A DNA stretch of 39,491 nt. It comes from an uncultured Sphingomonadaceae bacterium. Lineage in GTDB: Bacteria; Pseudomonadota; Alphaproteobacteria; Sphingomonadales; Sphingomonadaceae. The position numbers and the translations under genes are program-made. The stretch lies in contig CAIQHF010000033.1 in the NCBI GenBank assembly GCA_903871605.1, forward strand, positions 1 through 39,491, given 5' to 3'. Positions 1,881 to 39,491 of this stretch are shown here, piece by piece. The notes under the pieces were generated by a model, which did not search any database, had not been told where the DNA came from, and saw nothing but the letters and a program-made list of their open reading frames with translations. Each line of letters opens with the position of its first letter. The stretch's first letter is position 1.

Positions 1881-2444
1881 CTACCGTCCCGCCATGTCCG
1901 CTGCGATCCGGTCCGCAAGCTCGCCGATCAGCGCGCCGAACGCCTGTGCGGTCGGGACCGGCGCGGCGCCTGCCCCCGGTGTCGCGAGCGAGAGTTGCTG
2001 CACCGCGCCGCCTGGCACCACGCGATACGCGACCTGCATCGTCGCACCGGCCGGCCCCGCCTGGAAGGCGAGGATCGTCACGTCGAGCGTCCGCGCCTTG
2101 CCCGCGGCGCCCACGGTGCCCGGCGGGAGCACCGCGCCCGCCGGCAGCCGCGCCGTCAGATCCCGCACCAGCGCGTCGCGCGCGAGCAGCCCGAGCGGCG
2201 CGGTCCAGCGTGCGAAATCGTCGACCTTGACCTCGCCCGCGCTCTCCTGATGGACGAACTCGGCGCGGTCGAGCGCGACGGGCAGATGCACCGCCGGCAC
2301 CGCGATCGGCAGGCCGCGATAGTCGGCATGCACCGCGTCCGCCGGTGGCGGCGATGCGTCGAGCGTCAGCAGCGTCGTCTTGGGGCTGGTGCAGCCGGCG
2401 AGCACGACCAGCGCCGCCAGGCCGATCACAGGCAAGGCCCTCAT
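1881..2444 (-). CDS. pqiC: PqiC-type outer-membrane lipoprotein (ABC-type transport auxiliary lipoprotein)
   Basis: This 187-residue lipoprotein is the third gene of a pqiABC operon. A signal sequence ends in the lipobox LAGC (Cys18), so it should be acylated and placed in the outer membrane, where PqiC-family proteins dock the periplasmic tube made by PqiB. The order A-B-C and the overlap with pqiB support the call. The ATG at 2444 shares one base with the pqiB stop (TGATG) and lies 8 bases after AAGGAG. A GTG at 2447 (4-base overlap) is an alternative start adding one residue. Sequence identity within this DUF330/PqiC family is low in general, so position and lipobox are the main evidence. 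Confidence 0.85.
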   Translation of the reverse strand: MRALPVIGLAALVVLAGCTSPKTTLLTLDASPPPADAVHADYRGLPIAVPAVHLPVALDRAEFVHQESAGEVKVDDFARWTAPLGLLARDALVRDLTARLPAGAVLPPGTVGAAGKARTLDVTILAFQAGPAGATMQVAYRVVPGGAVQQLSLATPGAGAAPVPTAQAFGALIGELADRIAADMAGR

Positions 2445-4132
2445 CACTTCTTCTCCTTCGCCTTGCCGCGGATCAGCGCCTCGGGGTGGCGCCCGAGATA
2501 GTCGGTGAGCGACCGGATCGAGCGCGACATCTCGTCGATCTGCTGGATCGCATCGGGGAGGCTGCGATCCTGTGCCGCCCCCTCGCCCGAGAGCACGGTG
2601 CGCGCCGCCGCCGCGGCGCCGTGGAGCTCGTCGGCGGTCTGGTTGAGCTTGGTCATCAGCGGCCCGATCTGCGGCTTGACCTGCCCCATGATCGCATCGA
2701 GCTGCTTCAGCGTGCCGTCGAGATGCGCGATGCTGTCGCGGACCTGGCCCGATCCGCTGATCCGCGCGAGATTGCCGCTCAGCCGGTTGAGATTGTTGCC
2801 GATCTGCTCGAGCGGGATGCGGTTGATCTTGGCCATGATCTGGTTGGCGCTCGCGATCAGATCGTCGGTGCCGCCGCCGCCCTCGGCGACCGGGATCAGC
2901 GGATAGGCGCCGCCGTCGTGGCCGAGGCTTGCCGCGCCGGTGCCGCGGTCCGCCGCGAGCTGGATGACGTGCGCGCCGACCAGCGGCGGCGACTGCACCA
3001 TATGCGCGCGGTAGCCTTGCGCGAGCAGCCGCGAGACCGCGCGGTCGGTCGCCTCGCGCCAGGTGGCGGCGGGGGCGTCCTTGGGCAGGTCGATGTCGAG
3101 CTTGCGCGGGAAGATCGCCAGCACCGCCTCGGTATAGGGCTTGCCGCCGGGCGCGAAGAGCAGCTTGGCCGAGCGCACCCGGCCGATCGTGTAGCCCAGC
3201 ATCGACACGGTCGAGTTGCTCGACAGGTCGCCCGCGGCGCCGGCGAGGATCAGGCGATAGGGGATGTCGGGTCCGGTCGGGCCCTGCTCGGCGCTCGACT
3301 GGTCGTCATAGAGCGTGAAACTGGTGCCCGCGGGCGCCTGCGGCATGGCGCGCGCGTCGTGCGGCAGCTCGAACTGCACCGATCCCTGCAGCACGCTCGC
3401 CGGCGAGGCGAGCCCCGCCGACAGGCTCGCGCCCGACAGCGAGAGCTTGAGCGGACTCCCCGTCCAGAATTCGGCGCCCGGCTTGACGTAACGATCATAG
3501 GGCGCGTTGATGAACATCTGCATCCGAAACCGGTCGAGCCCGACCAGGGCGGTGTCGACGATCTTGCCGATCGGCAGGCCATGATAGCTGACCGCGGCCC
3601 CCGGCTGGAGCGAACCGACCGCGGCGGCCGTCAGATAATAGGCGGTGCCGCGGGCATCGGGCGGAATGATCGGCGGCTGATCGAGCCCGGTGAAGTGGCG
3701 CGTCGGGGTGCCGCCCGTGCCCGGCACCATCGCGATGATCACCCCGGCGACCGCGGCGCGGATCGACTGGATGTCGGTGATCGACGGATTCTCGCCGATC
3801 AGCCAGAATTTGGTGTTGGTGTTGAGCGCCGCCTTCTCGCGGGGATCGAGCCGCAGCGTCACCTCGACATGATGCGTGTCGGGCGAGACGCGGACGCGCG
3901 AGACCTCGCCCGCCTCGACCCCCGAGACGAGCACCTTGGTATTGCCGGGCGTGACCCCCTCGGCATTGCCGAACGTCACCGTCACGTCGACGCCGTGGCG
4001 CGTCAGCGCACGGATGCCGAGGAAGGCAACGATGATCAGCGCGGCGAGCGGCACCGCCCACACCAGCCCGGGCCAGCGGCTGCGGATGCTGCGCGCCTCC
4101 GGAAAATCCTCGTCTTGGCGGTCGTCGGTCAC
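2444..4132 (-). CDS. pqiB: PqiB-type MCE protein, lipid transport across the periplasm
   Basis: This 562-residue protein has one N-terminal membrane anchor (residues ~21-41) followed by repeated MCE domains; the first starts near residue 46 (GVDVTVTFGNAEGV). PqiB proteins form a hexameric tube from stacked MCE rings that bridges inner and outer membranes and carries lipids. The length is close to E. coli PqiB (about 546). The C-terminal ~120 residues are rich in heptad-like leucines and may form the helical needle. The start is GTG at 4132, overlapping the pqiA stop by 4 bases (GTGA). The same frame stays open upstream, but that part lies inside pqiA and is a shadow. The end overlaps the start of pqiC. 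Confidence 0.92.
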   Translation of the reverse strand: MTDDRQDEDFPEARSIRSRWPGLVWAVPLAALIIVAFLGIRALTRHGVDVTVTFGNAEGVTPGNTKVLVSGVEAGEVSRVRVSPDTHHVEVTLRLDPREKAALNTNTKFWLIGENPSITDIQSIRAAVAGVIIAMVPGTGGTPTRHFTGLDQPPIIPPDARGTAYYLTAAAVGSLQPGAAVSYHGLPIGKIVDTALVGLDRFRMQMFINAPYDRYVKPGAEFWTGSPLKLSLSGASLSAGLASPASVLQGSVQFELPHDARAMPQAPAGTSFTLYDDQSSAEQGPTGPDIPYRLILAGAAGDLSSNSTVSMLGYTIGRVRSAKLLFAPGGKPYTEAVLAIFPRKLDIDLPKDAPAATWREATDRAVSRLLAQGYRAHMVQSPPLVGAHVIQLAADRGTGAASLGHDGGAYPLIPVAEGGGGTDDLIASANQIMAKINRIPLEQIGNNLNRLSGNLARISGSGQVRDSIAHLDGTLKQLDAIMGQVKPQIGPLMTKLNQTADELHGAAAAARTVLSGEGAAQDRSLPDAIQQIDEMSRSIRSLTDYLGRHPEALIRGKAKEKK

Positions 4133-5472
4133 ACCCGTCTCCTGGCGGCGGCATCCCACATCAGGCGGGGATCGAAGGTCTTGGCGCTGATGATGGTCAA
4201 CACCACCACTGCGGTAAACGGCAAGGCGGCCGCCTCGGCGCGGCCGTAGATCAGCGCATTGTAGTTCATCACCGGAACGAACGCGCCGATCACGAAAGGA
4301 TCCACCATCGACCAGCGGCCGATCTCCTCGACGACGCGGTAGGTCCTCGCCTTGGCGACGAGATGGCGATCCGATCGGCTGAGCACCGACCAGACGCACC
4401 AGCTGATCCCGACCAGCTTGAGGAAGGGGATCAGGAAGCTCGCGCAGAACACCAATATGGCGAGATCCCACAGCCCGGCATGGACGAGATCGATCACGCC
4501 TTCGAGCACGGTATATTTGGTCGGCTGGTAATTGATCGGCAGCGTCGCCAGCGGATAGATATTGGCGGGGATGTAGAGCAGCAGCGCCGCCAGCGTCAGC
4601 GCGATCGTGCGGCTGATGCTCTGTGGCTTGCGGCGGCGGATCGGCGCCGCGCAGCGCGGGCAGCTCTGCCCTTCGCGGTGCGGCGGGAGCAGCAGGTCGC
4701 AATCCTGGCACTCGATCGCGTGCGCCGGATCGGCCGGGCAGCTATCGGGCGCTATCCGTTCCCATATCGCCGCCTTGTCGAGCGTCGCGCGCACCACCAG
4801 CGACAGCACGCCGGCAGCGATGAATGCGATCGCGCCGGGCCCGACGCGCACCGCGATCGAGGCCGCAAGCCGCGCATAGGCGACCGCGAGCCCGAGCAAG
4901 AACACATCGGGCATCGCCCAGGTCTCGAGCCGGTTGGACCAGCGGAAGGCGCGGCCCATCCAGGGCTCGACGCGGCCATAGGCGAGCAGGCCCAGCACCG
5001 CGCTCAGCAGCGCGAAGCGGACGAGCGGGAATATGACGACGAACAGCAGCACGGCCAGCGCCAGCAATGGCAATCCGTCGCCCAGCATCGCCCCCGCCGC
5101 CGAGGCGAGGTGGCTGCTGCGCGACACGCCGAGCGCGTCGGTGCGCAGGAACAGCGAAAGATTGGCGGGGATCAGCAGCAGCAACGTCGCGAGCGAGCAG
5201 GCCAGCGCAGCAGGCACGCTGCGCCCATGGGTGCGTTCGATCGTCGCGTCACAGGTGATGCAGTGCGTGACCGTGGCGGGACGCGCGGAGGGCAATCGCT
5301 GACGCGTGCCGCAATCGGGGCAGCCGACGATCGCAATGCCGGTTCCGCCGTGTGCGATGGCCGTCACGATGTTCGCATAACCTTTTCGAAAGCCACCCCA
5401 GGCAGAGCCCACCCCGTCCTGTCCAAGCCGGTCGGCGATGTAAAGCGCATTCCCGCGCGCCGCGTCGCTCAT
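4129..5472 (-). CDS. pqiA: PqiA-type integral membrane protein with two zinc-ribbon/PqiA modules
   Basis: This 447-residue inner-membrane protein has two tandem PqiA modules. Each begins with a Cys4 zinc ribbon (C51xxC54...C71xxC74 and C255xxC258...C271xxC274), followed by about four membrane segments. PqiA works with the MCE protein PqiB, probably feeding lipids to or from the periplasmic tube. It is the first gene of a three-gene overlapping operon. Its start lies 53 bases from the divergent Rieske oxygenase gene, so both promoters share that short gap. In enterics the operon is induced by paraquat through SoxRS; nothing in this sequence shows the local regulator. The ribosome binding site is weak. 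Confidence 0.92.
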   Translation of the reverse strand: MSDAARGNALYIADRLGQDGVGSAWGGFRKGYANIVTAIAHGGTGIAIVGCPDCGTRQRLPSARPATVTHCITCDATIERTHGRSVPAALACSLATLLLLIPANLSLFLRTDALGVSRSSHLASAAGAMLGDGLPLLALAVLLFVVIFPLVRFALLSAVLGLLAYGRVEPWMGRAFRWSNRLETWAMPDVFLLGLAVAYARLAASIAVRVGPGAIAFIAAGVLSLVVRATLDKAAIWERIAPDSCPADPAHAIECQDCDLLLPPHREGQSCPRCAAPIRRRKPQSISRTIALTLAALLLYIPANIYPLATLPINYQPTKYTVLEGVIDLVHAGLWDLAILVFCASFLIPFLKLVGISWCVWSVLSRSDRHLVAKARTYRVVEEIGRWSMVDPFVIGAFVPVMNYNALIYGRAEAAALPFTAVVVLTIISAKTFDPRLMWDAAARRRV

Positions 5473-29885: not shown

Positions 29886-32867
29886 TCAGGCGTCGAGCAT
29901 CTCGGCGATTCGATGCGACAGATCCGCCATCACGAAGGGCTTGGTGACCACCGCCATGCCCGGATCGAGATGGCCGTTGCCCACCGCGGCATTCTCGGCG
30001 AAGCCCGTGACGAACAGGATCTTGAGATCGGGCCGGCCGATCCGCGCCGCATCCGCCACCTGCCGCCCGTTCATGCCACCGGGCAGGCCGACATCGGTGA
30101 TCAGCAGATCGACCGTGCCGAGCGCATCGAGCTTCCTCAGCCCGGCCGGGCCATCCTCGGCCTCGATCACCGTATAGCCCGCCTCGTCGAGCAGTTCGAC
30201 GATCAGCATGCGCACCGTCGGCTCGTCGTCGATGACGAGGATCGTCCGCCCCGCCCCGTCGTCGCCGACCGGCATCGCCCGCGGCTCGGCCTCATCGGCG
30301 AGCGCACCGGCGTGGCGCGGCAGATAGAGGCACATCGTCGTGCCCTGGCCCGGCTCGGTATAGACCCTGACCTGCCCGCCCGATTGGCGGACGAAGCCGT
30401 GGATCATCGAGAGGCCGAGTCCCGTCCCCTGCCCGATCGGCTTGGTCGTGAAGAAGGGATCGAAGATGCGATCGGCGACGTCCTTGGCCATGCCCGTGCC
30501 CGTGTCGCTGACGCAGATCGACAGATACTGGCCCGGCGGCAGATCGCGCGATCGCGCCCAGCGTTCGTCGAGCCATTTGTTGGCGGTCTCGATCGTCAGC
30601 CGTCCGCCCTCGGGCATCGCGTCGCGCGCGTTGATCGCGAGATTGAGCAGCGCGCTCTCGAGTTGCGCCGCATCGACGCGCGCCGGCCACAAACCGCCCG
30701 CGCCGACGACCTCGACCGTGATCGCCGGCCCGACGGTGCGGCGGATCAGCTCCTCCATGCCGAACACCAGCCGATTGACGTCGATCGGCTTGGGATCGAG
30801 CGTCTGGCGGCGTGAGAAGGCGAGCAGCCGCTGCGTCAGCGCGGCGGCGCGCTGCGCCGAAGTGCGCGCGCCGTCGAGGAAACGATCGATCCCGTCGGTG
30901 CGGCCCTGCGCGATACGCCGCTCGATGATCTCGAGGCTGCCGCTGATCCCGGTGAGCAGATTGTTGAAATCGTGCGCGATCCCGCCGGTCAGCTGGCCGA
31001 CCGCCTCCATCTTCTGGGCCTGACGCAGCGCCTCATGCGCATCGGAGAGCTCGGCGGTCCGCTCCGCGACGCGCTGCTCGAGCGTGTCGCGCGCGGCCTG
31101 CAACTCCTGGAACAGCCGCGCATTATCGATCGCGATCGCGGCCTGCGCGGCGAGGCCGACGATCAACCGCTCGTGCGTCTCGTCGAACTGGGCCGGCTCG
31201 GGATGGCCGAACAGCAGGCCGCCCAGCACGTCGCCCGATCGCGAGACGACCGGGACGGCGAGATAGCTGCGCACCGGCAGGTGGCCTGCGGGCATGCCGC
31301 GATGCGGCTCGGAGAGCCCGTAGCGCGGATCGGCAACGATGTCGCCGGATCGCACGACTCCCTCGTTGCGGAAGGTCGGCGCGAACACCGCGGTGGCACG
31401 CGGCCGGCCGAGCGGGGCAAACGCCTCGCGCGCCGCGCCCGATAGCGTGAAGAGCGCGAGCCGCTCGCCCGTCTCGTCCATTATATTGTGGAAATAGGCG
31501 CCGAATTTGGCGCCGGTCAGCTCGACCGCGGCATCGGTGATCAGCTGGATCAGCGATTCGAGGTTGAGCTCGCCCGAAATCGCGGCGCCCGTCCGGTTCA
31601 GCGTCTCGAGGACGCGGCCTTGTTCGCGCAGCGCCATTTCGGTCTGCTTGCGATCGGTGACGTCGAGAACGAATTCGAACCCCGTCCCGTCCGGCAGCAG
31701 CTTGGCCGCGAACAGCGACCACCAGCGCGTGCCGTCCTTACGGATATATTGCTTCTCATAGGGCGTCGTCTGGCCGTGCCGCTTGAGGTCTGCGAACGCC
31801 TGTTCCGATTCCGCCATCCATTCGGGCGGGGTCAGCGAGCGCCAGCTGAGACTGCCCGATTCGAGGTCGGCGCGGTCGTAGCCGCTCATCCGCAGGAAGG
31901 CGTCGTTGGCGTCGATCAGCACGCCGTCCATGTCGAACTGCAGCGCGCCGACCGTCTCGATCTCGAGCGCGGTTCGGAACCGCGCCTCGCTGCGGCGGAC
32001 CGCCTCCTGCGCGAGATGCTCTTCGGTGACGTCGGCGCCTTCGCACAAGACGCCGACGATACCGCCGTCCGCATCGCGCATGGCATCGCACACGAAGGTC
32101 AGGAATCGCTCCTCGACGACGCCGCTGGGTTGGCGGAAGCTCGCCGGTGCCGCGGTCGCGCCCGCGCGTTCGCCGGTTGCGTAAACCCGGTCGAGCATCG
32201 CGAACAGGCTTTTGCCCTCGTCCTGACCGAAGGACGCGCGGATCGGCTTGCCGATCCAGTCGCTGCTTGCGAACGCCCGCCGATGCGCCGCGTTGACGAA
32301 CTCGACCACGTGCGTCGGGCCGCGCATCGCGATGATGAAGCCCGGCACCTGCTCGAACGCCTGAAACAGCCGCTCGCGCTCGGTCGCGGCGCGACGATCG
32401 GCCTCGATGCGCTCGGTGGTCTCGATGACGATGGCGATCACGCCGGCGGGGCGCCCCGTCTCGTCGAGCACCGGCGAATAATCGAGGTTCATCCAGACCT
32501 GCTCGGGGCGGCCATGGCGATGCAGCGTCAGCTCCTGGTCGCGATAGGCGAGCGTGCCGCCGGCCAGGCCGACCTTCATCACATGATCGTTGAAGTCGGC
32601 GACCTCGGGCCAGCCTTCACGGACATTCGATCCGAGCAGCGCGGGGTGGCGCCCGCCCGCGAACAGCGAATAGGCGTCGTTGTAGAGCATCACGCCCGCC
32701 TCGCCCCAGAGCATCACGATCGGGACGGGAGACAACAGCACCATGCCGAGCGCGGTATTGAGGCATTGCGGCCACCCGGCGATCGGCCCCAGCGGCGTGG
32801 TCGACCAGTCGCGCTGCGCGATCAGGCGTCCGGTCTCTCCGGCTTCACTCAGCCAATCCATGCCCAT
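29886..32867 (-). CDS. Hybrid sensor histidine kinase (PAS x3, GAF, HisKA, HATPase, receiver)
   Basis: This ~993-residue kinase has no membrane helices. In order: three PAS regions (~30-155, 165-290, 295-415), GAF (~440-585), a short coiled coil, HisKA with phospho-acceptor His632 in GGIAHDFNNLLTG, HATPase_c (~730-850, with DTGTGMAKDVADRIFDPFFT and GQGTGLGLSM), and a C-terminal receiver (VIDDEP...) with phospho-acceptor Asp925 in LLITDVGLPGG and the conserved Lys in VVTKPF. It senses a cytoplasmic signal, perhaps light, redox or a ligand; LOV-type Cys motifs are not seen. No response regulator is adjacent. The start is ATG 32867 or 32861; the open frame upstream overlaps the TDT gene and is not coding. 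Confidence 0.92.
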   Translation of the reverse strand: MGMDWLSEAGETGRLIAQRDWSTTPLGPIAGWPQCLNTALGMVLLSPVPIVMLWGEAGVMLYNDAYSLFAGGRHPALLGSNVREGWPEVADFNDHVMKVGLAGGTLAYRDQELTLHRHGRPEQVWMNLDYSPVLDETGRPAGVIAIVIETTERIEADRRAATERERLFQAFEQVPGFIIAMRGPTHVVEFVNAAHRRAFASSDWIGKPIRASFGQDEGKSLFAMLDRVYATGERAGATAAPASFRQPSGVVEERFLTFVCDAMRDADGGIVGVLCEGADVTEEHLAQEAVRRSEARFRTALEIETVGALQFDMDGVLIDANDAFLRMSGYDRADLESGSLSWRSLTPPEWMAESEQAFADLKRHGQTTPYEKQYIRKDGTRWWSLFAAKLLPDGTGFEFVLDVTDRKQTEMALREQGRVLETLNRTGAAISGELNLESLIQLITDAAVELTGAKFGAYFHNIMDETGERLALFTLSGAAREAFAPLGRPRATAVFAPTFRNEGVVRSGDIVADPRYGLSEPHRGMPAGHLPVRSYLAVPVVSRSGDVLGGLLFGHPEPAQFDETHERLIVGLAAQAAIAIDNARLFQELQAARDTLEQRVAERTAELSDAHEALRQAQKMEAVGQLTGGIAHDFNNLLTGISGSLEIIERRIAQGRTDGIDRFLDGARTSAQRAAALTQRLLAFSRRQTLDPKPIDVNRLVFGMEELIRRTVGPAITVEVVGAGGLWPARVDAAQLESALLNLAINARDAMPEGGRLTIETANKWLDERWARSRDLPPGQYLSICVSDTGTGMAKDVADRIFDPFFTTKPIGQGTGLGLSMIHGFVRQSGGQVRVYTEPGQGTTMCLYLPRHAGALADEAEPRAMPVGDDGAGRTILVIDDEPTVRMLIVELLDEAGYTVIEAEDGPAGLRKLDALGTVDLLITDVGLPGGMNGRQVADAARIGRPDLKILFVTGFAENAAVGNGHLDPGMAVVTKPFVMADLSHRIAEMLDA

Positions 32868-33056
32868 ACCTGCGTCGCAGCTCCACGCCCGCGATACCGC
32901 GTCGCCCGCGCCGTCGCCAGCGACTTGATGGAGGTGCCGGCGGCAGTCGTCGCGGATCACGGTTGGACGGAGCGATCCGATCGGCCTATCGCGACGCTTG
33001 TGGCGCGCGCCGTCCGAACGGCCGCCCCAAGACGCGGATCCGAGCGAGGAAGCGAT

Positions 33057-34214
33057 ATGATCGACAGGCGCAATCTCGGCGCGACGCTGCGCGGACTGAA
33101 GCCGCTCGGTCATCTCGATCATCCCCGTGAGATGATCCGCCAGTTCACCCCGAATTGGTTCGCCGCGACGATGGGCACGGGCATCCTCGCGCTCGCACTG
33201 CCGCAGCTGCCCGCGATCGGTGCGGTGCTGCGCCCGGTCGGAGCGGCGCTGTGGCTGTTCGACATCCTGCTCTTCCTCGTCTTCACCGCCCTCTATGCGG
33301 CGCGTTGGATCCTGTTCGGCCATGAGGCGCGCCGGATTTTCGGGCACAATACCGTGTCGATGTTCATCGGCACGATCCCGATGGGATTGGCGACGCTGCT
33401 CAACGGCGCGCTCGCCTTCGGGCTGCCGCGCTGGGGCACGGGCGTGATCCCCGTCGTCGAGGCGCTGTGGTGGATCGACGTGGCGATGGCGATGGGCTGC
33501 GGCGTTGCGATCCCCTATCTGATGTTCACGCGGCAGGAGCACCGGCTCGACGACATGACCGCGGTATGGCTGCTGCCCGTCGTCGCAGCCGAGGTGGCGG
33601 GCGCCAGCGGCGCGCTGCTGGCACCGCATCTGGCCGGCGCCCAGGCGCAATTCGCGGTGCTGGTGACCTCCTATGTCCTGTGGGCCTATTCGGTGCCCGT
33701 CGCGTTCGGGATCCTGTCGATCCTGGTGCTGCGCATGGCGCTCCATCGGCTGCCGCACGAGAGCATGGCGGCGTCGAGCTGGCTCGCTTTGGGGCCGATC
33801 GGTACGGGCGCGCTCGGGCTGCTCGTGCTCGGCGGCGACGCGCCCGCGATCTTCGCGGCGCACGGCATGGCCGAGACCGGAATCGTCGCGCAGGGCATCG
33901 GCGTCGTCGGCGGGCTTTTGCTATGGGGCACCGGCCTGTGGTGGCTGCTGCTCGCAACGATCATCACGCTGCGCTATTTCCGCGCCGGGGTGCCGTTCAA
34001 CCTCGGCTGGTGGGGTTATACCTTCCCGCTCGGCGTCTATACCGTCGCGACGTTCCGGCTGGGGACGACGCTTCACCTCGCGCTGTTCGGCATGATCGGC
34101 GCGGTGCTGACCGCGACGCTCGCGATCATGTGGACTCTCGTCGCCGGTCTGACGATCCGCGGCGGCTGGAAGGGCAAGCTGTTCGTCTCGCCCTGCATCG
34201 CCAACATCCCCTGA
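33057..34214 (+). CDS. TDT-family transporter (TehA/SSU1/Mae1-like)
   Basis: This 385-residue protein has about ten membrane helices. It opens with the family-typical IRQFTPNWFAATMGTGILALAL and later carries FNLGWWGYTFPLGVYTVATF. The tellurite-resistance/dicarboxylate transporter (TDT) family exports or conducts dicarboxylates, sulfite or anions; the exact substrate cannot be read. The length fits the SSU1/Mae1 side better than short TehA. The ATG at 33057 follows GAGGAAGCGAT. It is divergent from the hybrid kinase, with 189 bases between them, and converges on pitA at a perfect palindrome. Confidence 0.88.
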   Translation: MIDRRNLGATLRGLKPLGHLDHPREMIRQFTPNWFAATMGTGILALALPQLPAIGAVLRPVGAALWLFDILLFLVFTALYAARWILFGHEARRIFGHNTVSMFIGTIPMGLATLLNGALAFGLPRWGTGVIPVVEALWWIDVAMAMGCGVAIPYLMFTRQEHRLDDMTAVWLLPVVAAEVAGASGALLAPHLAGAQAQFAVLVTSYVLWAYSVPVAFGILSILVLRMALHRLPHESMAASSWLALGPIGTGALGLLVLGGDAPAIFAAHGMAETGIVAQGIGVVGGLLLWGTGLWWLLLATIITLRYFRAGVPFNLGWWGYTFPLGVYTVATFRLGTTLHLALFGMIGAVLTATLAIMWTLVAGLTIRGGWKGKLFVSPCIANIP

Positions 34215-34238
34215 GCGGCCGCGATCGCGGCCGCTCAG
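34211..34238. repeat. Perfect 28-base palindrome containing the stop codons of two convergent genes
   Basis: A fully self-complementary sequence is centred on CGATCG, with two NotI-type GCGGCCGC blocks and ends CTGAGC/GCTCAG. The TDT stop (TGA, 34212-34214) and the pitA stop (TCA on this strand, 34235-34237) sit at mirrored positions. It could act as a bidirectional terminator, though there is no T-run and almost no loop. Confidence 0.85.
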
Positions 34239-35836
34239 AACAGCGCGGAGAAGATCGCGTAGAGCACCCCCGCGATCAGGATCGAGCAGGGCAAGGTGAG
34301 CACCCACGCCATCACCATGTTGCGCAGCGTCGCGGCCTGCAGCCCCGATCCGTTGGCCGCCATCGTCCCGGCGACGCCCGAGGACAGCACATGCGTCGTC
34401 GAGACCGGCAGGCCGAAGCTGTCGGCGAGCCCGATCGTCGCCATCGCGACGATCTCGGCCGAGGCGCCCTGCGCATAGGTGAGGTGGGTCTTGCCGATCC
34501 GCTCGCCGACGGTGACGACGATCCGCTTCCACCCGACCATCGTGCCGAGCCCCAGCGCGAAGGCGACCGCGACCTTGACCCAGGTCGGGATGAAGCGCGT
34601 CGCCTTGTCGAGATCGCCCTTATAGGCGGCGAGCGCCTTGCCGTCCGCGCCCGCGAATGCGGCCTTGTCGGCAGTCAGCCGCTTGATCGCCTCGGACGCC
34701 AGATACATGTCGTTGCGCATGTTCTTGGTGGCGCCCGCGGGGACCAGCGCGAGCGCGCCATAGCCCTGGACCTGCCGGTCGATGTCGCCCGACAGCGCGG
34801 CGAGCGCCGGGAGCGTCGCGGCGTCGGGCTTCTTGGTGGAAATGAAGGCGGTCACCGCCGCGCGCACGTCGGCCGGCTCGGCGGCACCGGCGGCACGCCT
34901 CGTCAGCACCGTCTGCGCGGCGACCGTATCGCTGTGGAACTGCGCGCTATATTGCACGGGAACGGCGCGGTTGAGCGCATAAGCGGTGGGCACCGTGCCG
35001 ATCAGGATCAGCATGATCAACCCCATGCCCTTCTGCCCGTCGTTCGATCCGTGCGCGAAGCTGACGCCGGTGCAGGTGAAGATCAGCAGGCCGCGAATCC
35101 ACATTGGCGGCGGCGCGCCGTCCCTGGGCTCCTCGTACAGCGCCTTGTTCTTGATCAGCAGTTTCGCCACGCGGAACAGCAGCAGCGAGCCGAGGAAACC
35201 GAGCAGCGGCGAGAGCAGCAGCGAATAGCCGATCGTCGCGGCCTGGCTCCATTCGACTCCGCTGGTGCCGCTGCGGCCGTGGAGCAGCGCGTTGGCGACA
35301 CCGACGCCGATGATCGATCCGATCAGCGTGTGCGAACTCGAATTGGGGATACCGAACAGCCAGGTCGAAAGGTTCCAGATGATCGCCGCGATCAGCAGCG
35401 CGAACACCATCGCGAAGCCGGCGTGCGAGCCGACCTGGAGGATCAGCTCGACCGGCAGCAGCGAGACGATGCTGAACGCGACCGTCCCGGTCGACAGCAG
35501 CACGCCCAGGAAGTTGAAGAAGCCGGACCAGACGACCGCGACGCGCGGCGCCATCGAATTGGTGTAGATCACGGTCGCGACCGCATTGGCGGTGTCGTGG
35601 AAGCCGTTGACGAACTCGAAGCCGAGCGCGATCAGCAGCGCGACGAACAGCAGCGCGAACGGCAGAAAGGTGACCGCGTGGACGTGCGCGGCCGACGCGT
35701 CCGCGTAGATGCTCGAGGCGACGTAGCCGATCGCGACGACGATCGCGGCGAGAAATCCGATCTTGCCCGCCGGGCCGAGCCCGTGGTCGAGATCCTGCCT
35801 GGCGGAGACGTGCGGGCGCGCGAGTGTCGCAGTCAT
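34235..35836 (-). CDS. pitA: PiT-family inorganic phosphate transporter
   Basis: This 533-residue inner-membrane protein has both Pit signatures: ALGFEFVNGFHDTANAVATVIY (about residues 70-91, N-terminal half) and VSFAHGSNDGQKGMG (258-272, C-terminal half). It also has GIPNSSSHTLIGSIIG and a mirrored GLPVSTTHVLSSGV. It carries metal-phosphate in symport with protons. A ~150-residue soluble loop between the halves (ALNRAVPVQYSAQF... to LDKATRFIP) is longer than in E. coli PitA. The ATG follows AGGGAGA. It lies directly downstream of the agt/plcP pair on the same strand, with 80 bases between. Confidence 0.95.
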   Translation of the reverse strand: MTATLARPHVSARQDLDHGLGPAGKIGFLAAIVVAIGYVASSIYADASAAHVHAVTFLPFALLFVALLIALGFEFVNGFHDTANAVATVIYTNSMAPRVAVVWSGFFNFLGVLLSTGTVAFSIVSLLPVELILQVGSHAGFAMVFALLIAAIIWNLSTWLFGIPNSSSHTLIGSIIGVGVANALLHGRSGTSGVEWSQAATIGYSLLLSPLLGFLGSLLLFRVAKLLIKNKALYEEPRDGAPPPMWIRGLLIFTCTGVSFAHGSNDGQKGMGLIMLILIGTVPTAYALNRAVPVQYSAQFHSDTVAAQTVLTRRAAGAAEPADVRAAVTAFISTKKPDAATLPALAALSGDIDRQVQGYGALALVPAGATKNMRNDMYLASEAIKRLTADKAAFAGADGKALAAYKGDLDKATRFIPTWVKVAVAFALGLGTMVGWKRIVVTVGERIGKTHLTYAQGASAEIVAMATIGLADSFGLPVSTTHVLSSGVAGTMAANGSGLQAATLRNMVMAWVLTLPCSILIAGVLYAIFSALF

Positions 35837-35916: not shown

Positions 35917-36939
35917 TCAGGCGGCCATGTGCAGCTGGTGCCGGACGAGCCCGGCAGCGAACTGCGCGGTGCAGGTCGCCCAGCTATAGCCCTGCCCTAT
36001 GCGCGCGCAAGTGGCGCGATCGAGGCTGAGCGCCGCAACCGCCGCCTCGGCGAGGTCGTCGCGCATCACGCCGCTTCCGGGCGTCACGAGGATGTCGAGC
36101 GGGCCCGGAACGGGGTAGGCGGCGACGGGTACGCCGCTCGCCAGAGCCTCGATCATCACCAGCCCGAACGTATCGGTGCGGCTGGGGAAGACGAGCAGGT
36201 CGGCGCCGCGATACGCCGCTGCAAGCCGCTCGCCCGCGAGGCTGCCGAGGAAGCGGACATGCGGATAGCGCGCGCGCAGGCTCGCCAGCGCCGGCCCCTC
36301 GCCCACCACCACCTTCGTCCCCGCGACATCGAGCTGGAGGAACGCCTCGATATTCTTCTCGACCGCGACGCGGCCGACATGCAGCAGGATCGGACGTGGC
36401 AGATCGTCATAGTCGGCAAGCGACGGGCCCGCGGGGTTGAACTGCGCGGTGTCGACGCCGCGTGACCAGCGATGCGTGTGCGCCAGGCCGCGCCTGTGGA
36501 GTTCCGCCTCGAGCGTCGGCGTCGCGGCGAACACCGCGGCGGCGGGCGCATGGAAGCGCCTGACCGGCGGCCAGAACCAGTCCGCGGGGAGATGCGTGCG
36601 CATCGCCAGATATTCGGGGAAGCGCGTGTGGAAGGAGGTTGTGAACGGCATGCCGCGGTCGAGGCACCAGCGCCGCGCCGCCCAGCCCAGCGGGCCCTCG
36701 GTCGCGATATGGACCGCCTCGGGAGCGAATGCGGCGAGCCGCCGACCGAGCGCCGGTCCCGCGAGCAGCGCCAGGCGGATCTCGGGATAGGTCGGACAGG
36801 AGACCGTCGCGAACTGGTCGGGCGTGAAGGTCTCGACCGCATGCCCGATCCGGCGCAGCCACGCGACCGTGGTGGTCAGCGTGCGCACGACACCATTGAC
36901 CTGCGGCGCCCAGGCGTCGCTGACGAGCGCGATCTTCAT
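35917..36939 (-). CDS. agt: GT4-family glycosyltransferase, candidate lipid glycosyltransferase (Agt-like)
   Basis: This 340-residue GT-B protein begins MKIALVSDAWAPQVNGVVRT, with HTRFPEY (His104), SRGVDTAQFNP (160-169), HVGRVAVEKN (187-196) and the donor-binding SRTDTFGLVMIEALASG (253-269, Asp256/Glu264). This subfamily includes PimB/SQD2-like enzymes and the Agt glycolipid synthases that glycosylate diacylglycerol. It lies 10 bases downstream of the metallophosphoesterase gene, the arrangement of plcP-agt lipid-remodelling modules in which PlcP releases diacylglycerol and Agt makes glycolipid from it. In a sphingomonad a ceramide acceptor is also possible. The symbol is by context, not proof. 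Confidence 0.82.
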   Translation of the reverse strand: MKIALVSDAWAPQVNGVVRTLTTTVAWLRRIGHAVETFTPDQFATVSCPTYPEIRLALLAGPALGRRLAAFAPEAVHIATEGPLGWAARRWCLDRGMPFTTSFHTRFPEYLAMRTHLPADWFWPPVRRFHAPAAAVFAATPTLEAELHRRGLAHTHRWSRGVDTAQFNPAGPSLADYDDLPRPILLHVGRVAVEKNIEAFLQLDVAGTKVVVGEGPALASLRARYPHVRFLGSLAGERLAAAYRGADLLVFPSRTDTFGLVMIEALASGVPVAAYPVPGPLDILVTPGSGVMRDDLAEAAVAALSLDRATCARIGQGYSWATCTAQFAAGLVRHQLHMAA

Positions 36940-36949
36940 AGCTCGATCC

Positions 36950-37879
36950 TCATGCCGGCACCGCGACCGGAGCCGCTGGCTTGGCGGCGAGCGCGCGCTC
37001 GCGCATCGCCGCCTCGCGATGGCGTTCCGCCCAGTCGAGGATCTCCATCGCGCCGTCGGCATGTTCGACAAGCGCGGTGCAGCTCTCCACCCAGTCGCCG
37101 TCGTTATAATAGGTGATCGCGCCGAACTGGCGGATCTCGGCGGAGTGGATATGCCCGCAGACGACGCCTTCGACCTGACGTTCGGCGGCGGCCTGCGCGA
37201 CGACCTCCTCATATTTGCCGATGAACGCGACGGCATTCTTGACGCGCTTCTTGAGGTGCGCGGCGAGCGACCAATAGGGCAGGCCGAACCGCTTGCGCAC
37301 GCCGTTGACCAAGGCGTTGCTCTTGAGCAACAGCGTGTAGGCACTGTCGCCGAGAAAGGCGAGCCAGCGCGCGTAAAGCACGATATTGTCGAATTGGTCG
37401 CCGTGCAGCACGAGCAGCCGGCGGCCGTCGGCGGTGACGTGGATGTCTTCGGGAAGCAGCTCGACATCGCCGAAATGGAGGCCGGTGAAGTCGCGGAAGG
37501 CTTCGTCGTGATTGCCGGGAATATAGACGACGCGGGCGCCGCGCTTCGCCATCTTGAGCACACAGCGCACGACGTCGTTGTGCGCGGCGGGCCAATACCA
37601 GCCCTTGCGCAGTTGCCAGCCGTCGACGATGTCGCCGACCAGATAGAGCGTCTCGCATTCGATCGACTTGAGGAAATCGAGCAGCAGCGCGGCATTGCAT
37701 CCCGGCGTGCCGAGATGCGTGTCCGAGATCCAGACGGTGCGGAAGCGGAGCCGGGCTGCGTGGCGGTCGCGCGGCTCGGTGTCGCCAAGCCAGGCGGGAA
37801 GCGGCGCCTGGCGCCCGATCGGGCGACGCGGGCGGGATTCGGTGCGTGCGGTGATCGGCTGCGTGGGCGAAACGGCCAT
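36950..37879 (-). CDS. plcP: Metallophosphoesterase, PlcP-like phospholipase C candidate (LpxH-related)
   Basis: This 309-residue calcineurin-like phosphoesterase has all metal ligands: Asp53-x-His55 (ISDTHLG), Asp83 (VGDIVDGW), Asn123-His124 (PGNHDE), His159 (LHGDQFD), and His243/His245 (CGHIHSAEI). Automatic annotation would call this UDP-2,3-diacylglucosamine diphosphatase. However, sphingomonads lack lipid A, and the gene is followed by an Agt-like glycosyltransferase. That is the layout of PlcP, which in Sinorhizobium meliloti and marine bacteria cleaves phosphatidylcholine/ethanolamine to diacylglycerol during phosphate shortage. The divergent neighbour is a PmtA-like enzyme that would make that lipid. 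No signal peptide is seen; it probably acts at the inner face of the membrane. Confidence 0.85.
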   Translation of the reverse strand: MAVSPTQPITARTESRPRRPIGRQAPLPAWLGDTEPRDRHAARLRFRTVWISDTHLGTPGCNAALLLDFLKSIECETLYLVGDIVDGWQLRKGWYWPAAHNDVVRCVLKMAKRGARVVYIPGNHDEAFRDFTGLHFGDVELLPEDIHVTADGRRLLVLHGDQFDNIVLYARWLAFLGDSAYTLLLKSNALVNGVRKRFGLPYWSLAAHLKKRVKNAVAFIGKYEEVVAQAAAERQVEGVVCGHIHSAEIRQFGAITYYNDGDWVESCTALVEHADGAMEILDWAERHREAAMRERALAAKPAAPVAVPA

Positions 37880-38101
37880 GCGCTGCTCCGGTCTGCGACG
37901 GCGGGGCCGTCCGGTTCGGCTGCTGTAATCGGACTTGAAGACGATTGGAGGAAGTCTCGATGACAGCTTTCTTACGACGTCATTGTCGCGGCTTCGTCTT
38001 GCCGTTGTCGCCGAACTGAAACGCTTGACTGCGAAACCGCAGCGAATAGGCGGCGCGGTCTTGTCACGCGCTGCTCGCCCGGCACAGGAGTAGCGCGAGC
38101 G
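37880..38101. other. Divergent promoter region between plcP and pmtA
   Basis: This 222-base spacer carries the promoters of two oppositely directed lipid genes. I see one exact Pho half-site (see 37960-37966) and an AGGAG ahead of pmtA (38085-38090 region). There are no long inverted repeats and no small gene. Confidence 0.5.
37960..37966 (-). promoter_or_regulatory. Exact PhoB half-site CTGTCAT upstream of plcP
   Basis: On the minus strand CTGTCAT lies 80-87 bases before the plcP start. The units one period (11 bases) to either side match only 3 of 7 positions, so this is a single half-box. It is noted because two other phosphorus genes in the window have similar motifs. Confidence 0.25.
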
Positions 38102-38761
38102 ATGGCACTTCCCATGAGCACCGACGGCGTCGCCCAGGCCTATGGCCGCTGGGCGCCGGTCTATGATCTAGTCTTCGGGCCGGTGTTCCGGCAGGGCCGA
38201 TCCGCGGCGATCCGGGCCGCCGAGCGGCTCGGCGGCCGCATCCTCGAGGTCGGCGTCGGCACCGGCATCTCGCTGCCGGGCTATTCGCCGTCGAGCAGCC
38301 TCTACGGCGTCGACATCTCCGAACCGATGCTGGTCAAGGCGCGCCAGCGCGTCCGCAAGCTCGGCCTTGCCAATGTCGAGGCGATCGCGGTGATGGACGC
38401 CGAAGCGCTCGATTTTCCCGATGCCAGCTTCGACGTGGTGGTCGCGCAATATGTCGTGTCCGCGGTGCCCAATCCCGAGCGCGCGCTCGACGAGTTCGCG
38501 CGCGTCGTGAAACCGGGCGGCGAGATCATCATCACCACGCGCGTCGGCGCCGAGGCGGGAATCCGCAAGACGATCGAGAAGGGGCTGATGCCCGTCACCA
38601 GCCGGCTCGGCTTCCGCACCGATTTCCCCTTCGAGCTTTACACCGATTGGGCGAAGGACCGCCGCGACGTGACGCTGGTCGAGAAGCGCGCGCTGCCGCC
38701 GCTCGGCCATTTCTCTTTGGTCCGCTACGCCAAGCACGACGCGACGCAAGGGAACGCCTGA
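38102..38761 (+). CDS. pmtA: SAM-dependent methyltransferase, PmtA-like phosphatidylethanolamine N-methyltransferase
   Basis: This 219-residue class I methyltransferase has motif I LEVGVGTGISLPGY (48-61), Asp71 at the end of beta-2 and PPLGHFSLVRY near the end. The opening RWAPVYDLVFGPVFRQGRSAA is the Rhodobacter-type PmtA pattern for enzymes that methylate phosphatidylethanolamine stepwise to phosphatidylcholine at the membrane surface. The ATG at 38102 follows AGGAG with 11-base spacing. The stop overlaps the next gene (TGATG), so the two are translated together. It is divergent from plcP, a candidate for degrading its product. A quinone or other methyltransferase is a less likely alternative. 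Confidence 0.85.
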   Translation: MALPMSTDGVAQAYGRWAPVYDLVFGPVFRQGRSAAIRAAERLGGRILEVGVGTGISLPGYSPSSSLYGVDISEPMLVKARQRVRKLGLANVEAIAVMDAEALDFPDASFDVVVAQYVVSAVPNPERALDEFARVVKPGGEIIITTRVGAEAGIRKTIEKGLMPVTSRLGFRTDFPFELYTDWAKDRRDVTLVEKRALPPLGHFSLVRYAKHDATQGNA

Positions 38762-39408
38762 TGCCTGCCCTCCGCAAATTGCAGTTCGAGGCCGACGACG
38801 GTTCGGCGGGGTTCCGCGCACAGCTCAATGAGCAGCGCTGGGACGACCATCGCTTCTATCATCACAGCCTGGTCAACCAGAGCCTGCACTTCGTCAGCGC
38901 CTGCACCTTCCTCACCGCCTATGCGCTGCTGTTCAAGGATCCCGCGATCGCCAGCCTGCTCGCCTGGGGCGTCGCGATGACCAGCCGCCAGGCCGGCCAC
39001 TTCTTCTTCGAGCCCAAGGGCTATGACCATGAGAACCAGGTCACGCACCATTATAAGGAGGAGGTGAAGGTCGGCTATAATCTGTTCCGCAAATGGGTGC
39101 TGATGAGCATCTGGGCGGCGGTGCCGATCGTGCTGGCATTCGAGCCGAGCCTGTTCGGCACGCTCGAGCGGCCGGCGGGGTTCGTTGGCTATCTGCGTCA
39201 TGTCGGGATCGGCTGGCTCTGCCTGGGCGTCAGCGCGATCCTGTTCCGTACGCTCCAGCTGTTCGTCCAGCGCGACATCGAGACCGGGATCGTATGGGCG
39301 ACCAAGATCGTCACCGACCCGTTCAACGACTTCAAGATCTACCGGGGCGCCCCGGCCCGCCTGCTCAAGGGCGAGCGGCGCGACGACGAAGATCGGATTG
39401 CCGCCTAA
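38761..39408 (+). CDS. Histidine-rich membrane protein, Mpo1-like (2-hydroxy fatty acid dioxygenase?) candidate
   Basis: This 215-residue protein has three or four membrane helices (~44-58, 62-76, 112-128, 148-163). Histidines cluster in the first half: His34-His35, Asn39, His43 in FYHHSLVNQSLHF; GHFFFEPKGYDH with His80, Glu84 and His90; and THHYKEE with His96-His97. The 'YHH...N...H' and 'GHxxFE' pair matches the Mpo1/DUF962 pattern of Fe(II)-dependent dioxygenases that shorten 2-hydroxy fatty acids. A fatty-acid hydroxylase-type diiron site is the alternative. It overlaps pmtA by one base, so a role in membrane lipids is likely. I did not recognise an exact family. Confidence 0.75.
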   Translation: MPALRKLQFEADDGSAGFRAQLNEQRWDDHRFYHHSLVNQSLHFVSACTFLTAYALLFKDPAIASLLAWGVAMTSRQAGHFFFEPKGYDHENQVTHHYKEEVKVGYNLFRKWVLMSIWAAVPIVLAFEPSLFGTLERPAGFVGYLRHVGIGWLCLGVSAILFRTLQLFVQRDIETGIVWATKIVTDPFNDFKIYRGAPARLLKGERRDDEDRIAA

Positions 39409-39413
39409 CCGTT

Positions 39414-39491
39414 CCCCGGCGAAAGCCGGGGCCCAGGCCCGGAATCTGTGGCGGGCGCGGCGTTTGAACAGCGGAGTGGGGCCTGGGCCCC
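39414..39491. repeat. REP element with GAAA-loop hairpin, cut by window end
   Basis: CCCCGGC-GAAA-GCCGGGG at 39414-39431 is followed by CCCAGG. The window ends in GGGGCCTGGGCCCC, the start of the inverted partner. This is the typical sphingomonad intergenic element, with the same build (stem, GAAA, stem, CCCAG) as the GCTCCTGC hairpins at 19705-19724. It directly follows the last gene and may end its transcript. Confidence 0.8.

Follow-up and report, generated by a model that had tools for sequence, protein, structure and literature searches.

Phosphate shortage is frequent in soil, fresh water and the sea, and lipids without phosphorus aid bacterial survival. The closest described system is the remodelling of membrane lipids by PlcP and Agt, which has been reported for Sinorhizobium (PlcP), Agrobacterium (Agt), SAR11, and Erythrobacter NAP1 (PMC4796936, PMC8231724). 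The locus described here shares with it a metallophosphoesterase gene followed by a GT4 glycosyltransferase gene, an arrangement already known from Erythrobacter NAP1, and relatives of the locus also share the predicted Pho boxes. Unlike those systems, some genomes with this locus add genes for a methyltransferase, an Mpo1-like membrane protein, an aminotransferase, and a decarboxylase. None of these four is named in section 13 of PMC4796936, which describes six arrangements of plcP.

The locus lies at the end of a contig from an uncultured Sphingomonadaceae bacterium (GCA_903871605.1, CAIQHF010000033.1), the entire 39,491 nucleotides of which are referred to as the window. Its features are as follows:

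34235..35836, minus strand: PiT phosphate transporter (PHO4, E 1.4e-86), outside the conserved unit
35917..36939, minus strand: agt-like GT4 lipid glycosyltransferase, 340 aa (P0001; Glyco_transf_4 and Glycos_transf_1 above cut-off)
36950..37879, minus strand: plcP-like metallophosphoesterase, 309 aa (P0002; Metallophos above cut-off)
37880..38101, no strand: divergent promoter region, 222 bases, with weak Pho-box-like sites phased by 11 bases
38102..38761, plus strand: PmtA-like SAM methyltransferase, 219 aa (P0003; Methyltransf_11, E 1.8e-23)
38761..39408, plus strand: divergent Mpo1-like His-rich membrane protein, 215 aa (P0004; PF06127, E 0.0024; H-x8-H and H-x3-E)
39427..39491, no strand: contig end; contig C29 opens with the same 65 bases

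The plcP and agt genes are separated by 10 bases on the minus strand, the methyltransferase and Mpo1-like genes overlap by one base at 38761, and the PiT gene lies on the strand of agt, 80 bases past its end. The gene positions, strands, and spacings given in a preliminary description of the window were all re-found. Window proteins exceeded the Pfam gathering cut-offs for GT4, Metallophos, Methyltransf_11, and PHO4, with the Mpo1-like protein alone below. Four genes of a larger conserved set of six lie in the window; the other two, a convergent aminotransferase gene and then a decarboxylase gene, start contig C29 of the same genome. They were missed in the preliminary description because the window's contig stops 83 bases beyond the Mpo1-like gene.

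Gene content was surveyed in 147 genomes of the Sphingomonadales (the order sample), an order that includes Erythrobacter NAP1. Both plcP and agt were identified in 83 genomes and were neighbours on one strand in 29 of the 29 loci checked. Homologs of the methyltransferase (E <= 1e-30), the Mpo1-like protein (E <= 1e-3), and the aminotransferase (E <= 1e-40) were identified in an identical five genomes from four genera, and the set was absent from 142; the island decarboxylase is an extra copy in all five carriers. One scan with the Mpo1-like family found 272 relatives, of which 80 named loci were kept. Among these, matches were identified to the methyltransferase (77), aminotransferase (73), decarboxylase (72), Agt-like protein (35), and PlcP (30, counted inside the fetched flanks), in the order pmtA> mpo1L> <aminotransferase psd>. 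A survey of Pseudomonadota yielded 25 aminotransferase-positive genomes, comprising four order-sample carriers, G596, and 20 from which loci were fetched; the aminotransferase, decarboxylase, Mpo1-like protein, and GT4 (E <= 1e-6) occurred together in 19 of those 20. In L185, the lysophospholipid transporter gene lplT comes after the GT4 gene, and in Hyphomicrobium L121 the island adjoins genes for phosphonate use, with matches to PhnH and TIGR03308 that exceed the cut-offs. The set may be compared with the BtaA-BtaB route to betaine lipid (DGTS), in which BtaB is a methyltransferase. That pathway yields a phosphorus-free lipid, as the set may do, and is present in plcP-bearing members of the order (BtaA in 16 of 147 genomes, all among the 83 with plcP); unlike the set, it is absent from the five carriers, and no BtaA was detected in the window's genome, although zero overlap would often be expected by chance.

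Judged from sequence comparisons, we consider it fairly probable that the locus belongs to a six-gene, PhoB-controlled island for membrane-lipid remodelling with a nitrogen-lipid branch that has not been described before. Its PlcP-Agt half is already known biology from Erythrobacter NAP1 and SAR11: during phosphate starvation PlcP would cleave phospholipids to diacylglycerol, which Agt would convert to glycolipid. The second unit, comprising the PmtA-like methyltransferase, the Mpo1-like membrane oxygenase, the aminotransferase, and a second phosphatidylserine decarboxylase, would be co-induced with PlcP-Agt and would build or modify a nitrogen-containing lipid. The aminotransferase would aminate a lipid at a keto or aldehyde group that the Mpo1-like enzyme might supply, the decarboxylase would generate an amine head group, and in alphaproteobacterial loci the methyltransferase would methylate that head group. 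A more specific proposal can be put forward tentatively: the aminotransferase, Mpo1-like protein, decarboxylase, and GT4 might constitute an undescribed pathway, independent of BtaA and ornithine-lipid routes, whose product would be an amino- or N-methylated membrane lipid lacking phosphorus, such as an aminated glycolipid or a phosphate-free choline-like lipid; at phosphate starvation this product would take the place of phosphatidylethanolamine and phosphatidylcholine in alpha- and betaproteobacteria and probably in other Pseudomonadota.

A relative of the aminotransferase (P0006) scored 119.9 bits against PF00202 (class-III aminotransferase with PLP fold; cut-off 30.5), and Lys 378 (GKTLGGG) was invariant in 49 of 49 rows selected from 76 full-length matches (alignment A6), the first row being the window genome's own protein. 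By sequence, the nearest solved protein is the aminotransferase domain of mycosubtilin synthase MycA (PDB 6kfm; E 2.6e-46 with a single sequence and 6.8e-62 with a profile), which is also the nearest by fold (Foldseek E 8.7e-29). MycA is a fatty-acyl enzyme. Unlike MycA, the aminotransferase is free-standing (Pfam identified Aminotran_3 only) rather than a PKS/NRPS domain with a carrier protein, and more than 100 residues precede its matched part, opening with a long helix predicted at low confidence; the enzyme is probably membrane-anchored. The relative of the decarboxylase (P0007) scored 187.7 bits against PF02666 (phosphatidylserine decarboxylase; cut-off 22) and 143.8 bits against TIGR00163 (cut-off 111.75), and the window genome's own copy scored 186.9 bits (cut-off 22).

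The top NCBIfam model for the methyltransferase (P0003) is the PmtA phospholipid N-methyltransferase (NF045882), with 139.4 bits against a curated cut-off of 390; two relatives scored 126.1 and 156.1 bits. PmtA is by far the best-matching family, with a score far under its curated threshold. Assignments of both the methyltransferase and the Mpo1-like protein sit under curated cut-offs. The divergent arrangement of plcP against the methyltransferase and its partner is real, being found in 29 of the 80 named loci with a median gap of 224 bases between matched parts. In four of the five order-sample carriers the methyltransferase gene lies apart from plcP (on another contig or more than 800 kb away), and a shared promoter is therefore optional.

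An alternative closer to the preliminary description is that PlcP is simply supplied with more of its substrates, phosphatidylethanolamine and phosphatidylcholine, by the second decarboxylase and PmtA, with the aminotransferase and Mpo1-like protein recycling the released acyl or head-group parts. The scores of a relative's decarboxylase above both family cut-offs, the PmtA affinity of the methyltransferase, and the divergence of plcP are consistent with this model, which we nevertheless regard as unlikely. No methyltransferase match was identified in nine of nine loci that keep the rest of the set (L185-L187, L189-L194), nor in three betaproteobacterial named loci, although these genomes may carry one elsewhere, and plcP matches in the fetched flanks were confined to 30 of 80 loci. 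Furthermore, the aminotransferase resembles the fatty-acyl enzyme MycA, and no phospho-lyase was named among the 60 of 65 aminotransferase matches listed.

Regulation was evaluated with Pho boxes, defined by at most 3 mismatches of 14, upstream of first genes, which the script took to be those lacking another match to the cluster in the preceding 450 bases of the same strand; upstream regions under 100-150 bases were omitted. Boxes preceded 115 of 266 first genes, 7 of 167 internal genes, and 12 of 485 other genes, counts that ignore shared ancestry. The main set had boxes upstream of PlcP (15 of 31) and the methyltransferase (38 of 78), and decarboxylase genes had 2 in 96. Where the methyltransferase is internal, in an alphaproteobacterial set, boxes preceded Agt (7/9) and the aminotransferase (8/10) and never the methyltransferase (0/9), and L185-L187 have a box between the divergent Mpo1-like and Agt genes (3/3). 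In several lineages the position of the Pho box follows that of the leading gene. On the aminotransferase side the box overlaps the decarboxylase start codon and so is about half coding. Boxes were identified in 24 of 60 plcP upstream regions, a count outside which the window's own plcP falls with 4 mismatches, and in 9 of 29 plcP genes distant from the set. The window's candidate sites, at 37949-37966 and 37960-37977 on the minus strand (the sense of plcP), each have 4 of 14 mismatches, and 50 of 485 control regions were as good or better.

These data uphold the previously claimed link to phosphate through the relatives, the window's own sites being weak. They do not support the proposal of a single promoter region that sets synthesis of a lipid against its degradation: in relatives both units and also the aminotransferase have boxes ahead of them, a pattern suggestive of joint induction, and not all carriers have the shared promoter. 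The link to the PiT neighbour is likewise unsupported, with a PiT match within 10 kb in just 3 of 80 named loci. As a whole, the earlier interpretation is partly supported.

It is improbable that this is a phosphate-independent housekeeping lipid cluster in which the Pho-box matches reflect another regulator or shared ancestry. Sites are often degenerate, the counts ignore phylogeny, the window's sites are weak, and certain lineages do not fit: betaproteobacterial L117/L119/L123 (Agt 1/3, Mpo1-like 0/3, aminotransferase 0/3), L185-L187 (aminotransferase 0/3), and L189-L194 (aminotransferase 2/6, yet internal Mpo1-like 4/5), in the last of which the fused GT4 is miscounted as first (0/5). Against this, internal genes of the same loci are seldom boxed, several lineages have the site shifted along with the leading gene, and plcP genes distant from the set are boxed too.

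The set comprises up to six genes, which many bacteria keep together in whole or in part. It is probably switched on at phosphate exhaustion and seems to replace membrane lipids that contain phosphorus by others, of which one or more may be new to science. If so, the wide retention of the set, its apparent phosphate control, and the pairing of a fatty-acyl-type aminotransferase with a divergent Mpo1-like protein would point to an overlooked lipid class, or a large remodelling step, in common plant and soil bacteria. Labels from automated annotation, such as LpxH-type phosphatase, class-III aminotransferase, or hypothetical protein, can conceal such a pathway.

The Mpo1-like protein (P0004) scored 18.4 bits against PF06127 (gathering cut-off 24; E 0.0024), which matched 19 of 19 scanned family members, P0004 included (best E 1.1e-4). 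The motifs H34-x8-H43 and H80-x3-E84 were invariant in 58 of 58 rows (alignment A5: 61 of 80 loci were taken, L045 and L086 (stops), L051, and L052 were excluded, and P0004 was added to the remaining 57). The frame of L107 contains a stop. In DUF962 proteins, H21-x8-H30 and H68-x3-E72 occurred in 25 of 25 (from 30 loci; L134, L139, L146, and L163 gave no frame and L158 a wrong one). The protein thus resembles the Mpo1/PF06127 dioxygenases of 2-hydroxy fatty acids in both motifs and in near-equal spacing between them; it differs in being about twice the domain length, in its sub-threshold score, and in a weak profile-profile comparison in which the motifs align (probability 4.9, E 0.0082, shallow profile). 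No solved structure stood out as similar.

Mpo1 acts on 2-hydroxy fatty acids and Pfam names the PF06127 family 2-hydroxy-palmitic acid dioxygenase, which would suit a sphingolipid side pathway in which 2-hydroxy acyl or 3-keto-sphingoid compounds are the substrates of the Mpo1-like protein and aminotransferase. About 8 kb separate the methyltransferase/mpo1L pair of L036 from serine palmitoyltransferase, and lptF sits in this interval; on a plasmid of S. parapaucimobilis, genes for lptF, lptG, and a desaturase function are found in the vicinity of the set. However, five carriers in Hyphomicrobium and Roseateles/Mitsuaria have serine palmitoyltransferase relatives of just 31-35%, compared with best hits of 69-100% in four sphingomonads, and 142 of 147 order genomes lack the set although sphingolipids are typical of Sphingomonadales. 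We consider this pathway improbable.

The phosphoesterase (P0002) scored 41.1 bits against PF00149 (Pfam cut-off 21.5) and 43.8 bits against the curated LpxH model (cut-off 190.35), and is 49.6% identical to an S. meliloti relative and 27.4% to E. coli LpxH. None of the 147 order-sample genomes gave an LpxC match, whereas 4 of 14 control genomes did, including E. coli and Caulobacter. Together with the 83 genomes encoding both plcP and agt, these comparisons identify the pair as PlcP-Agt rather than LpxH, as the preliminary description had argued. That the enzyme is LpxH for lipid A synthesis, with divergent neighbours by chance, is highly improbable: its top NCBIfam models are LpxH and relatives are annotated accordingly, yet the model score is far below cut-off, LpxC is absent from the order sample, and plcP adjoins agt in every locus checked. 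Phosphoesterase relatives on plasmid records carry the label UDP-2,3-diacylglucosamine diphosphatase.

The window is the entire contig C33, one of the 54 contigs that make up a 4.28-Mb genome. All of the gene coordinates noted for it in the preliminary description were confirmed, and the genes considered here are as follows.

Metallophosphoesterase (PlcP-like): minus strand, 309 aa
GT4 glycosyltransferase (Agt-like): minus strand, 340 aa, 10 bases past the phosphoesterase gene
PiT transporter: minus strand, 80 bases past the GT4 gene
Methyltransferase (PmtA-like): plus strand, 219 aa
His-rich membrane protein (Mpo1-like): plus strand, 215 aa, 1-base overlap with the methyltransferase gene
Aminotransferase: window's own genome, C29:100-1713, at the very start of contig C29

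The top NCBIfam matches of the phosphoesterase were LpxH models, but at 43.8 bits versus a cut-off of 190.35, and the protein is 49.6% identical to a relative from S. meliloti (a record that may not be the characterised PlcP) and 27.4% identical to E. coli LpxH. The LpxC search, which matched 4 of 14 control genomes, including E. coli and Caulobacter, detected the gene in none of 147 genomes of the order. The phosphoesterase therefore has no evident lipid A route to serve, and both the score and the LpxC result bear out the earlier view that the LpxH label fits poorly. A PlcP-like phosphoesterase gene was present in 83 of the 147 genomes. The glycosyltransferase was matched at E <= 1e-30 in 86, strongly (E <= 1.7e-92) in the identical 83 genomes and weakly in the other three, and plcP and agt were same-strand neighbors in all 29 loci checked. 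Sebastian et al. (PMC4796936) reported plcP-agt in Erythrobacter NAP1 and SAR11, plcP clusters with predicted Pho boxes, and glycolipids at low phosphate; the pair itself is already known.

The METHYLTRANSFERASE and Mpo1-like genes were each found in five of the 147 genomes, the same five for both and adjacent in every one (5/5); among these five, the pair adjoins plcP in the window's genome only. At E <= 1e-40, the aminotransferase was identified in exactly these five genomes. On C29 it lies next to a divergent decarboxylase gene. The window's final 65 bases (39427-39491) are identical, in the same orientation, to G000:C29:1-65 (locus L129 of the window's own genome), and because of this identity C33 and C29 very probably abut, with ~100 bases between convergent stop codons. 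The shared bases belong to a GC-rich, palindrome-like element. This decarboxylase is an extra copy: the five carriers encode two or three, versus one in four of the five non-carriers tested and two in the other (G005). BtaA (betaine lipid) was detected in 16 of the 147 genomes and in none of the five carriers, the window's genome included. This is suggestive of BtaA and the set being alternatives, although zero overlap would also often be given by chance.

When named genomes were searched using the Mpo1-like family, 272 relatives emerged, of which 80 loci were kept, chiefly from Sphingomonas but also from Novosphingobium, Croceibacterium and relatives, Hyphomicrobium, and Roseateles/Mitsuaria; two records, one labeled as a Bacillus and the other as an actinobacterial MAG, have improbable names. 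Near the Mpo1-like gene (tblastn, E <= 1e-15), we identified the methyltransferase in 77 loci, a class-III aminotransferase in 73, phosphatidylserine decarboxylase in 72, an Agt-like gene in 35 (four merely 28-35% identical), and PlcP in 30. Six of the seven loci that lack the aminotransferase have a contig end <=1.3 kb from the Mpo1-like gene, the other being L107. Gene order was steady, with the methyltransferase followed by the Mpo1-like gene on one strand in 77 loci, the aminotransferase convergent with this unit (within 1 kb in 61), and the decarboxylase divergent from the aminotransferase in 72. The divergent plcP/methyltransferase layout that had been described in the window recurs in 29 of the 80 loci (median gap, 224 bases). 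Rough clustering of neighboring reading frames revealed no further widely shared family, frames overlapping the set's genes aside. The closest relative's Mpo1-like gene (L086:10001-10644, uncultured Sphingomonas MAG; 95% identical over the matched part) has an in-frame stop that could be an assembly error. Lone Mpo1-like genes on Bradyrhizobium plasmids (L131, L133; 51-52% identical to that of the window) lie amid transposases and unrelated genes, with the rest of the set absent from the stretches shown. In genome G110 (L036:5-7905), serine palmitoyltransferase (718.1 of 670 bits), lptF (245.3 of 230), and, by eye, kinase-, desaturase-, and GNAT-like frames lie upstream of the methyltransferase/Mpo1-like pair, and an S. 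parapaucimobilis plasmid (L132) carries lptF, lptG, and desaturase genes close to the set.

Across Pseudomonadota, the aminotransferase was identified at E <= 1e-60 in 25 of 398 sampled genomes. A decarboxylase, an Mpo1-like gene, and an Agt-like GT4 match (E <= 1e-6; short in L179, with 17 reaching E <= 1e-15) accompanied it in 19 of 20 fetched loci, and the remaining locus, L188, is a contig of 4.4 kb. Ten of the 20, all from the window's class, have the methyltransferase. Thus, GT4, Mpo1-like, aminotransferase, and decarboxylase genes form the core, whereas the methyltransferase and PlcP look like lineage-specific additions. In L189-L194, the GT4 forms the C-terminus of a larger protein, where it follows an unnamed N-terminal region of ~500 residues; the two such proteins scanned are 911 and 958 aa long. 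The lysophospholipid transporter gene lplT (510.9 of 297 bits) comes after the GT4 gene in L185, and phosphonate genes (PhnH, 180.1 of 91.5 bits; TIGR03308, 327.9 of 201.65) flank the set in Hyphomicrobium (L121).

The Pho-box consensus comprises two copies of CTGTCAT separated by 4 bases (PMC3131613). With <=3 of 14 mismatches allowed and the 200 bases before each start codon considered, boxes preceded 115 of 266 first genes of units, 7 of 167 internal genes, and 12 of 485 other genes in the loci; the box counts are not corrected for shared ancestry. The decarboxylase (2/96) was kept apart, since its box runs into its own start and was assigned to the aminotransferase, whose site takes in ATGAC of the decarboxylase start. 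In the main set, boxes preceded PlcP in 24/60, the methyltransferase in 38/81, and the aminotransferase in 25/72. Where Agt leads, in alphaproteobacterial loci of the phylum set, they preceded Agt in 7/9, the aminotransferase in 8/10 (seven with <=2 mismatches, the best at -42), and the internal methyltransferase in 0/9. With Mpo1L and Agt divergent (L185-L187), a box lies between the two in 3/3 and before the aminotransferase in 0/3; the betaproteobacterial L117/L119/L123, also divergent, have 1/3 before Agt and 0/3 before both Mpo1L and the aminotransferase. In L189-L194, boxes lie before the aminotransferase in 2/6 yet before the internal Mpo1L in 4/5. Such misfits (here, in the betaproteobacterial loci, and before the aminotransferase of L185-L187) count against phosphate control, as do the overlap with the decarboxylase start and the sites of the window itself, the best of which have 4 mismatches and are equaled or bettered by 50 of 485 control regions.

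The aminotransferase, which starts with a long helix predicted at low confidence, retains the PLP lysine in 49 of 49 alignment rows. Among solved proteins, the MycA aminotransferase domain, which aminates a beta-keto fatty acyl chain, is nearest to it by single sequence, profile, and fold (212.8 bits by profile versus 164.6 for the best glutamate-semialdehyde aminomutase). All 58 aligned rows of the Mpo1-like protein, like 25 of 25 DUF962 proteins, retain H-x8-H and H-x3-E, with 36 and 37 residues between the motifs, respectively. Because family score and profile comparison are both weak, it is best called Mpo1-like in motif rather than a proven member of the family; its structure model is confident and no solved fold matched it well.

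Most likely, the six genes would act jointly at low phosphate. PlcP and Agt would form glycolipid from phospholipid, as established in relatives; for the other four, the gene content, their co-occurrence, and the Pho boxes lead us to infer a role in producing or altering a nitrogen lipid. Such joint induction is likelier than the earlier proposal that one promoter balances synthesis and breakdown of a single lipid. We recognized no account of a linkage of plcP-agt to the aminotransferase, Mpo1-like, decarboxylase, and methyltransferase set among the titles and abstract openings of the open-licence papers searched, and there is a real chance that the linked set points to a new lipid class.

Elsewhere on the contig, 29886-33863 (minus strand) encodes a hybrid sensor kinase with three PAS_4 stretches and GAF, HisKA, HATPase, and receiver domains, overlapped on the opposite strand by a frame labeled by eye as a TehA-like transporter. 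Another envelope-lipid gene, at 2444-4711 (minus strand), encodes a protein with two MlaD stretches.
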